From the NCBI GenBank assembly GCA_017540905.1, contig JAFYAC010000015.1:1-35854 (forward strand): DNA of 35,854 nucleotides. The letters run 5' to 3'. Shown one piece after another: positions 5,948 to 34,189 of the stretch (positions are counted from its first letter, which is position 1; each line of letters starts with the position of its first letter). The notes beneath the pieces were generated by a model, which had not been told where the DNA came from, searched no databases, and worked only from the letters and a program-made list of their open reading frames with translations. The position numbers and the translations under genes are program-made. The stretch comes from Kiritimatiellia bacterium. GTDB lineage: Bacteria > Verrucomicrobiota > Kiritimatiellia > CAIQIC01 > Lenti-01.

Positions 5948-6904
5948 TCAGAGCCGTACGTCCCCGGTCCCGCGCGCCGCGCGGAACCAGTCCGCCGTGC
6001 GCTTGAGCCCCACCGACAGCGGCGTGTCGCACGAGAGCCCCAGCGAATGCAGGCGCGAGACGTCGAAGATCTTGTCCATCTGTCCGTCGGGCTGCGTCGT
6101 GTCCCACACGATTTCGCCGCGGAACCCGGTCGCCTCGCGCATGGATTCGGCGAGCTCCCGGATGGAGATGCGCCGCCCGGCGGAGATGTTCACCGGCTCG
6201 GAGGAATCGTAGTGGCGGATGAACCACGGCACCGTCGCCATGACGTCGCCCGCGTACACGAAGTCGCGCGTCGGCTTCCCCGTCCCGAACGCCCGCACGC
6301 TCGCGTCGCCGCGGTCCGCCGCCTCGATGTACTTGCGCACCAGCGCCGGGATCACGTGCGCCTGCTCCAGGTTGAAGTTGTCCCACTCCCCGTACACGTT
6401 GCCGGGAACCAGCACCACCGAGTTGAAGCCGTGCTGCACGCGGTAGGCCCACGACTGCACCAGCAGCATCTTCTTCGCCACCGAGTAGCCCGCCGACTCG
6501 ATCTGCGGGAAGCCGTTCCACATCTGGTCCTCGCCGATGGGCGAGACGGCGTCGTGGGGGTACGAGCAGCCGCCCATGAACGTCACCAGCTTGCGGACCC
6601 CCGCGCGCTGGGACTCGTGCAGCATGTGGAGGTTCATGCAGAGGTTCTCGTAGAAGAAGTCCGCCGGATGCAGCCGGTTCGTCAGGATGCCGCCCGACTT
6701 CGCCGCCATGTGGATGACGCAGTCGGGCTTCGTCCGCGCCAGCAGCGCCGCCGGCGCGCCGGGCTCCAGTAGGTCCGCGTCGGCGCGCGACACCGGCAAA
6801 ATCTCGCTCTCCGGGAATTCGCGCCGGAGGACGGGCAGGAGGTGGTGGGCGAGGAAACCGGTGGCCCCGGTGACCAGGATACGTTCAAAGTGGGATGTGT
6901 CCAT
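5948..6904 (-). CDS. GDP-L-fucose synthase-like NAD(P)-dependent epimerase
   Basis: The 318-residue protein aligns by eye with the GDP-4-keto-6-deoxymannose epimerase/reductase (fucose synthase) group. Landmarks are GATGFLA (13-19), HMAAKSGGI, GGCSYPHD (111-118), GYSVAKK with Tyr140/Lys144, and GNVYGEWDNF. Family enzymes convert GDP-4-keto-6-deoxymannose to GDP-L-fucose using NADPH. Two departures are notable. The serine or threonine that normally precedes the Cys-x-Tyr-Pro segment is Gly111, and the third glycine of GxxGxxG is Ala19. A related 4-epimerase or another 6-deoxysugar is therefore possible, and no GDP-mannose dehydratase lies in this window. The start at MDTSHF was chosen because a promoter-like sequence ends seven bases before it; an in-frame ATG 36 bases upstream coincides with the -35 region. 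Confidence 0.75.
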   Translation of the reverse strand: MDTSHFERILVTGATGFLAHHLLPVLRREFPESEILPVSRADADLLEPGAPAALLARTKPDCVIHMAAKSGGILTNRLHPADFFYENLCMNLHMLHESQRAGVRKLVTFMGGCSYPHDAVSPIGEDQMWNGFPQIESAGYSVAKKMLLVQSWAYRVQHGFNSVVLVPGNVYGEWDNFNLEQAHVIPALVRKYIEAADRGDASVRAFGTGKPTRDFVYAGDVMATVPWFIRHYDSSEPVNISAGRRISIRELAESMREATGFRGEIVWDTTQPDGQMDKIFDVSRLHSLGLSCDTPLSVGLKRTADWFRAARGTGDVRL

Positions 6905-6911
6905 GCGGGCC

Positions 6912-6940
6912 AGTGTACACGCGGTGGCGGGGCGGGGCAA
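6912..6940 (-). promoter_or_regulatory. Candidate promoter of the three-gene epimerase/GT operon
   Basis: Minus strand: TTGCCC (6935-6940), 17-base spacer, TACACT (6912-6917). The expected transcription start falls at or within a base or two of the ATG at 6904, so the mRNA would be leaderless. Confidence 0.5.
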
Positions 6941-6991
6941 CGGGAAAACGGAGGTCTCGGGGCCCGAACCGGGCCGGCACTAGGCCGCCTT

Positions 6992-7130
6992 GGGAGGGCC
7001 GCGCTTCGTCGCGGCCGCGCGAACGGGGTGTTCCGGCATGTCCTTGAAGCGTCCTCTGGCGTCGGCCCGGACGAAGCCGGGCCCTCCCGGAATACCGCTA
7101 CGCTTTTTCTTTTTTTTTCAGGTACAGTGC
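6992..7130. repeat. REP-A inverted pair, copy 2, with T-rich tail
   Basis: Arms are GGGAGGGCC-GCG-cttcgt-CGCGGCC (from 6992) and the reverse complement of GGGAGGGCC-CGG-cttcgt-CCGGGCC (ending 7088), heads outward. Similarity to the copy at 27669 continues past the pair through a CGCTTTTTC-type T-tract, so the unit is about 135-140 bp. The hairpin plus T-tract could also terminate plus-strand transcripts. Confidence 0.75.
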
Positions 7131-7160
7131 AAAGTCAAACCATCCGTTTTGGCTGGCCCC

Positions 7161-7493
7161 GGGTAGGGCGGGCAGTCCCGAAGGTTGATCGATCAGATAA
7201 GCCATGGAACAAGCCCGCTCGCACTCATTTCTCTTCTGCCTGCGGCGCAAAACACGGAGCGCGCGGAGTAAGGAGACACGGAGATTTTCCAGGGAGGAGC
7301 TTCGCGCGTCCCAAAACGTCCCTCTCAAACGTTTGTCCGGCGTTTTCGGGTGCGAAGTCTCCTCCAACAAACGCTCCATCCAAAAACTCTCCGTGTCTCC
7401 GTGCCTCCGTTCCCTCCGCGTTTGGCGCCGCAGACCCCGTCCTCAAGGAAAAATCCTTATCTGATCAGCATTCCGGGCAGTCCCCTGCCCGCC
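7161..7493. repeat. REP-B hairpin interrupted by a foldback element
   Basis: The left part (7161-7179) and the right part (7485-7493) of a GTAG-headed hairpin are separated. The 11-bp sequence CGGGCAGTCCC stands on both sides (7169-7179 and 7474-7484). Removing one copy and the insert restores a 28-bp hairpin identical to the reverse complement of 34096-34123. Confidence 0.8.
7180..7473. mobile_element. Foldback/MITE-like insertion of about 294 bp
   Basis: The insert is one long imperfect palindrome. Its ends carry GATCAGATAAG (7190-7200) and CTTATCTGATC (7457-7467). Further in are CTGCGGCGC with GGAGACACGGAGA (left) and the CTCCGTGTCTCCG run with GGCGCCGCAG (right), then GGAGGAGCTTCGC and GCGAAGTCTCCTCC. 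It encodes no plausible protein. The flanking 11-bp duplication marks it as a transposed, non-autonomous element, presumably mobilised by a transposase elsewhere. A partial relative lies at 3840-3930. Confidence 0.75.
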
Positions 7494-7500
7494 GTGCGAA

Positions 7501-7618
7501 ATGGTCGCGGCATGAAGGCAAATGGAAAGCTTTCCATGCGTCTGGCAGGCGCACGGCGGCGAAGGGACTCGCCGCCCTACCCCGAAAAGATGCGAAAGAA
7601 TGGACTTTTCGGCGTACC
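7501..7618. repeat. REP-B long unit, copy 1
   Basis: This stretch matches 19411-19529 closely over about 110 bp. It includes a perfect 16-bp palindrome ATGGAAAGCTTTCCAT (7522-7537) and a hairpin GGCGGCGAAGGGACTCGCCGCC followed by CTACCCC (reverse orientation of the GTAG head). With the interrupted hairpin at 7161-7493 it forms an outward-headed inverted pair. The remaining 7619-7809 shows no gene or clear signal. Confidence 0.75.
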
Positions 7619-7809
7619 AGGCGCTCGTTTTGGGCAAAGCCACCATCCCACTTTTCCACTTTTCGCTGCATACCCCGCCGGAACTGGAATCAGGGCAACG
7701 GGAAAGTCTGCGTGGAGGCGTTGGGGGCAGGCTGGGAAGGCGGATGTTCCCACATCCAGGGCCCCGGAATCAGGCCGCACGGGAGGGCGGACGGCACCGG
7801 GGGGCGCTC

Positions 7810-8292
7810 CTATTCCTCTCCTCCGTCGAAGTCTTCGTCTTCGTCGAACGGCTCCCCGTCGTCTTCCCCCTCGTCCTCCTCGTCGTCCTCGTCGAGATCG
7901 CCCATTTCGGCGAACTTGTCGTAATACTCCTGCGCGAGATCGATGAATTCACCGGCCTCTTCGAGGAATTTTTCCTTGTCGAACTTGGCGTAGGGAAGGT
8001 GCTGGAAGAGGACCATTGCGCCGACGATCGGCAGGCGGCCGAGGCCGGGACCGCCGTAGAACGGGCCGCACGCCATGTCCACCAAGTCTTCGGCGTCCTG
8101 GTAGCTGATGCCTTTGGGGAGCTTCGGGGCGACGATGCTGAACAGGGTGGCCTGCGTGCCAGCGTCGTCCTCGCGGAGCATCACGCTGAGATCCTTGTCG
8201 ATGATGATGACGTGCGAGCCCAATTGGTCGCGCTCGATGTCGTAGTCGATGGTTTCGCTCAGCGCGTCGATGTATTCTTCCAGTTTCGTCAT
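7810..8292 (-). CDS. Small acidic-tailed protein, possible CesT/YbjN-like fold
   Basis: The start is the ATG of MTKLEEYIDALSE, giving 160 residues. Residues 1-130 alternate helix, beta strands and helix in an order that recalls the CesT (type III secretion chaperone) or YbjN fold: an N-terminal helix, VIIIDKDLSVMLRED, ATLFSIVAPKLP, a loop, then IVGAMVLFQHLPY and a long C-terminal helix. Residues 131-160 are almost entirely Asp/Glu/Gly. No secretion genes are present here, so a chaperone role is unproven and the fold call is by eye only. It has its own promoter-like sequence and follows the metallo-hydrolase gene on the same strand. Confidence 0.7.
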   Translation of the reverse strand: MTKLEEYIDALSETIDYDIERDQLGSHVIIIDKDLSVMLREDDAGTQATLFSIVAPKLPKGISYQDAEDLVDMACGPFYGGPGLGRLPIVGAMVLFQHLPYAKFDKEKFLEEAGEFIDLAQEYYDKFAEMGDLDEDDEEDEGEDDGEPFDEDEDFDGGEE

Positions 8293-8377: not shown

Positions 8378-9015
8378 CCGCCCGCGTGCAGTTGAAGGAA
8401 GGGGTTGGCTCGGCGTTCGGCATCGAGGGTCGAGGCCGGGCCGTGCCCGGGCAGGATGGCGGGGGAACCCGGCAAGCCGGCCAGGCGGCGGAGGGAGCGG
8501 AGAAGGGTCGGATAGTCGCCGCCGGGAAGGTCGGTGCGGCCGGCGCTGCCCGCGAAAAGGGTGTCGCCCGTGAAAAGGACGTCCGCCGCCGGGACGTGCC
8601 AGCAGACGCCGCCGGGGGTGTGGCCGGGGGTCTCCAGGCAGTGCCACTCGGCGCCGGCGAGGGCCAGTACCGTGCCTTCGGTTGCGCTGTGGAGTTCGGC
8701 GGCGGGACGCCGCGGGGCGGGGAGGAATCCGGCAAGGGCGTTGGCGGCGGTGAATGCCCAGGGGAGGTCCCCCGCGGGGAACCACACGGGGACCTCCGGG
8801 AGGGCGTCGGAGAGGTCGGCCAGCGCCAGGATGTGGTCCGGATGGCCGTGGGTGACGAGGATGGCGTCCAGCGCCAGGTTTTTGGCGCGGAGGTGCGAGA
8901 GGAGGGCGTGTGCGTCGTCGCCGGGGTCCAGGAGGACGGCGCGGCGGGTGGCTTCGTCGATCGCCAGGTGGCAGTTGGTTTCGATGGGGCCGACGGGGAG
9001 GGTCTGGATTTTCAT
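8374..9015 (-). CDS. Metallo-beta-lactamase-fold hydrolase (glyoxalase II-like)
   Basis: The 213-residue protein shows the complete metal-binding set of the MBL fold. It has THGHPDH (His56, His58, Asp60, His61), a histidine in ETPGHTPGG, an aspartate in FTGDTLFAGSAGRTD, and LPGHGP near the end. Length and the GSAGRTDLPGG segment fit the short YcbL/glyoxalase II-like group that hydrolyses thioesters such as S-lactoylglutathione, though many members have unknown substrates. It is cytosolic, with no signal peptide. The gene lies just beyond the rpsT terminator, with no promoter seen in the 87-base gap; the ribosome site is weak. Confidence 0.88.
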   Translation of the reverse strand: MKIQTLPVGPIETNCHLAIDEATRRAVLLDPGDDAHALLSHLRAKNLALDAILVTHGHPDHILALADLSDALPEVPVWFPAGDLPWAFTAANALAGFLPAPRRPAAELHSATEGTVLALAGAEWHCLETPGHTPGGVCWHVPAADVLFTGDTLFAGSAGRTDLPGGDYPTLLRSLRRLAGLPGSPAILPGHGPASTLDAERRANPFLQLHAGG

Positions 9016-9040
9016 GGCAGGCGGGAGGGCGGTGGCGGGG

Positions 9041-9082
9041 AAAAAGAAAGCCCGCGCAGTCCGTGTGGGGAGCGGCGCGGGC
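9041..9082 (-). terminator. Rho-independent terminator of rpsT
   Basis: On the minus strand GCCCGCGC (9075-9082) pairs with GCGCGGGC (9050-9057) and is followed at once by a T-rich run, TTTCTTTTT. It lies 20 bases after the rpsT stop. Confidence 0.85.
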
Positions 9083-9102
9083 GCAGTCGGAAAGGGCTGG
9101 GA

Positions 9103-9372
9103 TTACTTCGCGGCGACCTTGCGGAGCATGGCGCCGGCGCGGGATTTCTTGCGGACGGCGGTGTTCTTCGGGACGATGCCGTGCTTGACGCCTTTGTCCA
9201 GGGCGGAGCAGTAGGCGGCATAGGCTTCGGCGGTCTTCGGGGCTTCGCCGGCTTCGACAGACGCGAGCAGGTCCTTCCGCAGGGTGCGGAGGCGGGACTT
9301 GGTCTGCGTGTTGCGTTGGCGCGATTTCTCGGCGGTCTTTACGCGTTTGACGGCGCTTTTGATGTTGGGCAT
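9103..9372 (-). CDS. rpsT: 30S ribosomal protein S20
   Basis: The 89-residue Lys/Arg/Ala-rich protein begins MPNIKSAVKRVKTAEKSR and ends KKSRAGAMLRKVAAK, both characteristic of S20, which binds 16S rRNA near the base of the small subunit. The length is usual for the family. A CAGGAGAC ribosome site stands seven bases before the ATG. It is monocistronic in appearance, with a near-consensus promoter upstream and a strong terminator downstream. The gene is divergent from the polysaccharide operon that starts at 9546. Confidence 0.98.
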   Translation of the reverse strand: MPNIKSAVKRVKTAEKSRQRNTQTKSRLRTLRKDLLASVEAGEAPKTAEAYAAYCSALDKGVKHGIVPKNTAVRKKSRAGAMLRKVAAK

Positions 9373-9404
9373 TCGTTGTCTCCTGATTTCTTGAAAGTTG
9401 CCGA

Positions 9405-9432
9405 ATCATACCCGGTGGCGACGGAATGTCAA
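9405..9432 (-). promoter_or_regulatory. rpsT promoter
   Basis: Minus strand: TTGACA (9427-9432), 16-base spacer, TATGAT (9405-9410). The -35 is a perfect sigma70 consensus and the -10 differs at one base. The leader is about 25-30 bases. Confidence 0.85.
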
Positions 9433-9499
9433 TCTTGGATGCACGGAAAGCGGATTTTTCCGTCGGCACGGCCCGGCGCCCGGCCGCCGGAAAAAAGGG

Positions 9500-34095: not shown

Positions 34096-34189
34096 GGCGG
34101 GCAGGGGACTGCCCGCCCTACCCAACGGTCGCACGAACCGCTCTTCCCCGGTGCAAAGCCCGGGTAGGGCGGCGAGTCCCCTCGCCGCC
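34096..34189. repeat. REP-B inverted pair (intact), inward-facing heads
   Basis: Two hairpins, GGCGGGCAGGGGACTGCCCG-type at 34096-34123 and its relative GGGTAGGGCGGCGAGTCCCC-type at 34162-34189, each with a GTAG head (CTAC when read on the plus strand for the first). The first is identical over 28 bp to the target restored at 7161-7493. The remaining 33952-34095 has no gene. Confidence 0.8.

Follow-up and report, generated by a model that had tools for sequence, protein, structure and literature searches.

The 294-bp foldback insert at positions 7180 to 7473 of the window (the whole 35,854-nucleotide stretch of Kiritimatiellia bacterium DNA that was analysed) is confirmed as one copy of a family of ~300-bp MITEs with dozens of copies in the genome. 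These elements, which are non-autonomous and bounded by 18-bp terminal inverted repeats (TIRs), belong to an already known kind of element, and the enzyme that moved them in trans was very probably a transposase of the IS4 family, subgroup IS4.

The insert and its family

The insert (+ strand) splits a GTAG-headed REP, designated type A by the REP pattern, into a 5' part at 7161-7179 (+) that ends in the first copy of an 11-bp duplication and a 3' part at 7485-7493 (CTGCCCGCC; +). The duplication, CGGGCAGTCCC, stands on either side of the insert at 7169-7179 and 7474-7484 (both +). The original prediction of a foldback insert in a REP with an 11-bp target duplication agrees with these data in its coordinates, its repeat and its inverted repeats. 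When the flanks (7161-7179 plus 7485 onward) are joined they read GGGTAGGGCGGGCAGTCCCCTGCCCGCC, and a script-based comparison found the 28 bases of the restored site to be identical to the reverse complement of 34096-34123, an intact type A REP on the - strand and the only place in the window where this 28-mer occurs. The intact empty site that had been proposed for the window is therefore matched base for base, but it is a paralogous REP and does not represent the orthologous locus. A search of four related genomes for the left flank gave a closest match that ends at 6883, short of the insertion locus.

The borders proposed for the element hold at the right end, where 7473 coincides with the right end of the MITE family and the right TIR, GAATGCTGATCAGATAAG (7456-7473, -), fits the family pattern exactly. 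The left TIR of this copy (7180-7201, +; GAAGGTTGATCGATCAGATAAG) is degenerate, beginning with GAA at 7180 and then altered, with ~4 extra and 10-11 missing bases relative to the consensus. Because of this alteration, BLAST alignments of other good copies begin at query base 23 or later, and the left border at 7180 is a probable assignment, supported by the 11-bp repeat and by the initial GAA. Overall, this copy has 93.8% identity to the consensus, which for this figure was built from 17 copies, one of them (C77:7473) wrongly oriented; the alignment of 23 copies described below contains it in the right orientation. The insert carries two inverted-repeat pairs, and its calculated single-stranded DNA folding energy was -63.8 kcal/mol, compared to -40.6 ± 4.0 kcal/mol in 200 shuffles (z -5.85). 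An Rfam search of 6800-7900 gave no match.

Searches of the genome and its relatives with the insert and its ends, which the original prediction had proposed, revealed a multi-copy family. In the source assembly (3.5 Mb in 178 contigs, 84% complete), BLAST with the insert returned at least 88 rows, 40 of 126 candidates being scored, and the TIR GAATGCYGRYCAGAYAAG with up to two mismatches had 97 matches, compared to 0 for the reversed control. These matches could be arranged into 24 plausible pairs, 22 of which span 289-326 bp, which left 48 ends unpaired, several near contig ends. An alignment of 23 complete copies, including that of the window, comprises 333 columns and shows two or more subtypes as well as apparent mosaics. 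One MITE (C26:1847-2172; L108 1847-2215) is nested inside another, with the duplication GGGCTTGTCCC. Short length, 18-bp TIRs and multiple copies with target duplications are all features of a MITE. In a search with the MITE, 4 of 39 genomes (own included) matched, these being the own genome, two of the genus and one of the taxonomic family, with the matches in one genome (G001) covering the inner part only. Of 18 genomes of the taxonomic family, 6 contained the TIR pattern with up to one mismatch, at 1-2 matches each apart from the own genome.

As a separate observation, many TIRs of the family, including that at 7456-7473, contain GATC (within TGATCAG), and GATC is a methylation-controlled site in some IS4-family elements.

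Target duplication and REPs as landing sites

Target duplication was assessed in 23 complete copies derived from 27 pairs at a looser cut-off, after a duplicated contig, two truncated copies and the false outer pair that the nested insertion produces had been set aside; the window copy, whose left end is altered, was not included. Identity between flanks was highest at 11 bp (0.78), compared to 0.27-0.47 at 6-10 and 12-16 bp. At this length the duplications were perfect in 7/23 copies and identical at 10 or more of 11 positions in 11/23, whereas 10,000 permutations gave on average 0.6 copies at the latter level, with a maximum of 5. The other 12 copies fell below 10/11 at 11 bp, among them C91:14153, which has a 10-bp duplication. 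From 84 distinct flanks, representing 95 of the 97 ends, we derived the palindromic target consensus GGGNCWGNCCC, the exact form of which is not enriched in the genome (88 occurrences, with 88 also for its reversed reading).

The GTAG REP pattern, with up to three mismatches, had 108 matches in the genome and 0 in the control. The interrupted and the intact REP of the window each form a pair with a slightly divergent, inverted sister, termed type B and located by the same pattern at 7555-7580 (-) and 34164-34189 (+), respectively. Of the 95 ends, 68 fall outside REPs and 27 inside. The pattern assigned 20 of the latter to type A and 4 to type B, and three more, on C26, C49 and C31, which deviate slightly from it, were assigned to type A by hand. 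Counted as insertion loci, 19 were type A and 3 type B, compared to 41 type A and 59 type B among intact REPs, the latter counts being taken from the 100 of 108 REPs listed (Fisher p 1.1e-4). The 19 type A loci comprise 17 by pattern plus C26 and C31 by hand, with C49 counted as a duplicate of C26, and may double-count elements split over two contig ends; with 13 or 10 type A loci instead, p is 0.005 or 0.018. Type A REPs differ from GGGNCWGNCCC at one base and type B REPs at two, and the favouring of type A fits the target consensus, to which it is nearer.

The REP is a preferred target of the MITE, not an exclusive one. The original prediction had named the REP as the target of the element, and this stands insofar as one REP type is favoured, but most ends lie elsewhere and the target proper is GGGNCWGNCCC. 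This is a clean case from a little-studied lineage, in which the REP type near to the target is hit and its sister type much less, and target choice of the IS4 type can explain how one class of mobile DNA accumulates in another, the REPs.

The REPs themselves show a GTAG head, a palindrome, many copies and a gene resembling those for REP-associated tyrosine transposases (RAYTs). This gene, on contig C86 (L067 1315-1992), scored 77.5 bits against NF047646, just under the cut-off of 80, and has GTAG REPs on either side of its conserved part. The GTAG head, the palindrome and a nearby RAYT are shared with the GTAG-tagged REPs and REPtrons reported, in Verrucomicrobia among others, in the available part of PMC3733652; unlike in that work, the REP here is a target and not the mobile element under study.

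Evidence for an IS4-type transposase

According to Table 1 of De Palmenaer et al. 2008 (PMC2266710), elements of the IS4 subgroup have ends of the form -AATR--------WTW---- and duplications of 10-13 bp. The right-end consensus of the MITE, GAATGCTGATCAGATAAG, fits this signature in full, while its left-end consensus has ACA in place of the tabulated WTW. Likeness to the subgroup lies in the right-end signature, the length of the duplication and a YREK motif in a related transposase described below, and the available part of the same paper also ascribes strong target specificity to some members. The element of the window differs from them in having no transposase.

Two contig ends of the own genome carry the MITE TIR next to IS-type coding ends. 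At the end of C138, GGGCCAGACCC is followed by the TIR and then by the 3'-terminal 64 codons of a gene resembling DUF6788 (PF20586, E 0.0027, below the cut-off). The end of C107 carries the reverse complement of these 11 bp, the TIR (one mismatch) and a 23-codon C-terminus that resembles the end of an IS4 transposase, and both coding frames stop within the TIR. The C107 C-terminus had alignment scores of 38, 26 and 24 against the transposases of the related elements L166, L171 and L170, compared to a mean of 21 and values of up to 44 for shuffled 23-mers. Judged from their sequences, C138 and C107 are likely the two ends of one shared insertion and hence of one IS, although they could be different insertions, because GGGCCAGACCC/GGGTCTGGCCC recurs in the genome. 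We infer that this IS supplies, or once supplied, the transposase. The full element is absent from the assembly, in which, at 84% completeness, no intact transposase with MITE TIRs was found; the flanks read around the 4 PF01609 genes of the own genome held no TIR with fewer than five mismatches, and a contig-database scan that possibly did not cover the own genome yielded no element bounded by both TIRs.

Plasmids yielded no match to the DUF6788-like end; matches occurred in 11 of the 241 genomes of the class, counting the own one, with 39-59% identity in the other 10. Among the 22 matching loci outside the own genome, 18 carry a TIR of related type (e.g., GAATGGCGCTTAGTTAAG), often beside GGGTCAG-type flanks. 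L166, which has the same sequence as L169 from Verrucomicrobia bacterium UBA6015, is a complete related IS with the TIR GAATGGCGCT... and the 11-bp duplication GGGACAGACCC on both sides. Its transposase of 488 residues is of the IS4 family (NF033592, 177.8 bits against a cut-off of 115; PF01609 also matched) and has the YREK motif YLRRWDLELGFRDLK, whereas only the 23-residue C-terminus at the TIR is seen in the own genome. A second, divergent gene of 111 residues matches PF20586 (DUF6788) at 41.3 bits, with a cut-off of 27.2, and L162 likewise has a DUF6788-like gene divergent to an IS4-family transposase. In the IS4-type elements at L166 1665-3502 and L170 213-2072, the divergent DUF6788-like gene ends at the TIR. 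Of three relatives with both ends, L166 alone has a perfect duplication (L171, 9/11; L170, 7/11), and the TIRs of related ISs match the MITE TIR pattern at only 12-15 of 18 positions.

A DUF6788-like gene is a less usual feature for a partner IS, and the data suggest that several genomes of the class harbour an IS4-type IS with such a companion; a literature search gave no hit for DUF6788. In the available part of PMC2266710, a single-ORF transposase is a hallmark of the IS4 family, from which the related IS differs by its second gene. The family assignment rests on the transposase, and because the relative carries this second gene we limit the claim to movement by an IS4-type transposase, short of full membership in the IS4 subgroup.

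Taken with the 11-bp duplication, the end signature and the IS-like contig ends, the complete related IS, which shares duplication length and kind of target with the MITE, agrees with the suggestion in the original prediction of an IS4-type transposase acting in trans. Such a transposase would bind the TIR of the MITE, which would be inserted by cut-and-paste into the palindromic 11-bp target, repair then duplicating these 11 bp. REP hairpins would be hit often, as one REP type holds a near-perfect target. The cut-and-paste mode is proposed by analogy with what the available part of PMC2266710 describes for IS4.

Other origins of the insert were also considered. It might have entered by recombination between repeats, with the 11-bp repeat being simply a part of the palindromic REP and matching by chance. 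The targets are indeed so alike that even permuted flanks agree at 5.1 of 11 positions on average, but the elements' own flanks agree at 8.6 of 11, far above the permuted value, and do so at 11 bp only. Moreover, the duplications differ between copies (e.g., TCCTTTTTCCC and TGGGATGTCCC), and one copy lies nested in another, all of which makes chance or recombination extremely improbable. The insert could instead be a large REPIN-like unit moved by a RAYT, and both REPs and a RAYT-like gene do exist in the genome. Against this, duplications of 11 bp and TIRs of 18 bp are the marks of a DDE transposase, HUH-type enzymes are not known to leave such a duplication, and 68/95 ends lie outside REPs, so we regard a RAYT as a highly improbable agent.

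A DDE transposase from another family that also makes duplications of ~11 bp would account for these marks as well, and the assembly contains no intact transposase, the IS of the own genome being known from two contig ends only. The DUF6788-like end at the TIR, however, has counterparts in 10 further genomes of the class, most matching loci carry a related TIR, and at L166 and L162 the accompanying transposase is a divergently oriented one of the IS4 family. Together with the end signature and duplication length of the IS4 subgroup, these observations make another DDE family improbable, and we favour movement of the MITE by an IS4-type transposase.

Comparable target choice exists among known elements. 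IS231A prefers the target GGG(N)5CCC, which like that of the MITE places GGG and CCC around five bases; our literature search for IS231 combined with target preference gave no hit. By Table 1 of PMC2266710, the 10-12-bp duplications of IS231 are similar to the 11 bp of the MITE, but its ends start with CAT and those of the MITE with GAAT. ISRm22 of Sinorhizobium meliloti is likewise an IS4-family element that targets REP palindromes, but in the available part of Tobes and Pareja 2006 (PMC1525189) it has 6-bp duplications and all counted copies are in REPs, compared to 11 bp and 27/95 ends for the MITE. The same part of that paper places IS1397 in the IS3 family, so that landing in REPs is common to IS1397 and the MITE while the transposase family differs. 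The resemblance to IS1397 drawn in the original prediction is therefore not borne out as kinship, and the REP habit is a mere analogy. IS1397 makes a short duplication, and the 11-bp duplication and IS4-type ends of the MITE are not those of an IS1397/IS3-type element.

Coding potential, inner palindrome and surroundings

The insert is crossed by an 86-codon frame (7204-7464, +), in which 21/23 copies have no early stop but 12/23 have frame-shifting indels. Variable columns number 44, 47 and 51 of 86 at the three codon positions, with the third position not favoured (p 0.56), and the three frames of the insert had no match in Pfam. With neither a Pfam match nor a codon-position bias as a sign of coding, the MITE apparently has no coding function and is taken as non-coding, consistent with the small, transposed, non-coding element originally predicted.

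The inner stem of the insert has arms at 7240-7288 (CTGCGGCGCAAAACACGGAG...GGAGACACGGAG; +), defined by the inverted repeats I1 and I4 and by conservation, and at 7384-7433 (CTCCGTGTCTCC...GGCGCCGCAG; +), defined by inverted repeats and conservation. Across 23 copies, conservation was 0.968 and 0.924 in these arms, compared to 0.914 and 0.901 in the TIRs and 0.81-0.84 in the spacers and loop, for segment borders set after seeing the alignment. Arms that are better conserved than the TIRs are a less usual feature. Covariation in the stem was weak, with 7 of 71 predicted pairs changed on both sides.

The motif CTCCGTGYCTCCGTG occurs in 75 of the 241 class genomes, representing 43 of 108 genera. 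Its reversed control, in part the 8-base repeat itself in rotated form, also matches in ~53 of the 241, so that part of the spread may be simple repetition. Thirteen stretches from nine of these genomes (L201-L213), chosen for motifs standing in inverted pairs, are foldback repeats with CACGGAG arms; TTYACCACGGAG is present on at least one strand in 11 of them, and none contains the MITE TIR with fewer than four mismatches. Literature searches with three variants of the CACGGAG motif gave no hit. It is conceivable, if rather unlikely, that the inner palindrome is a conserved functional module akin to class-wide CACGGAG palindromes that were picked up by different mobile ends. As a putative binding site, it may be recognized by a host or transposition protein. 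The sharing of this stem motif by repeats in many genomes of the class may reflect common descent, a common function or simple repetition.

In the surroundings of the insert, a second repeat family (GGAGGGCCGCGCTTCGTCGCGGCC...GGCATGTCC) occupies 6988-7116, immediately upstream of the REP pair, and recurs in related genomes; two MITE copies, C91:14153 and C175:3674, are inserted in copies of this repeat. Further out, 3944-6883 matches two contigs from a genome of the same genus at 98% identity, compared to only 78-79% between 8396-9453 and its relatives. To judge from this contrast, the 98% segment, which includes an epimerase gene, was possibly part of a recent exchange.
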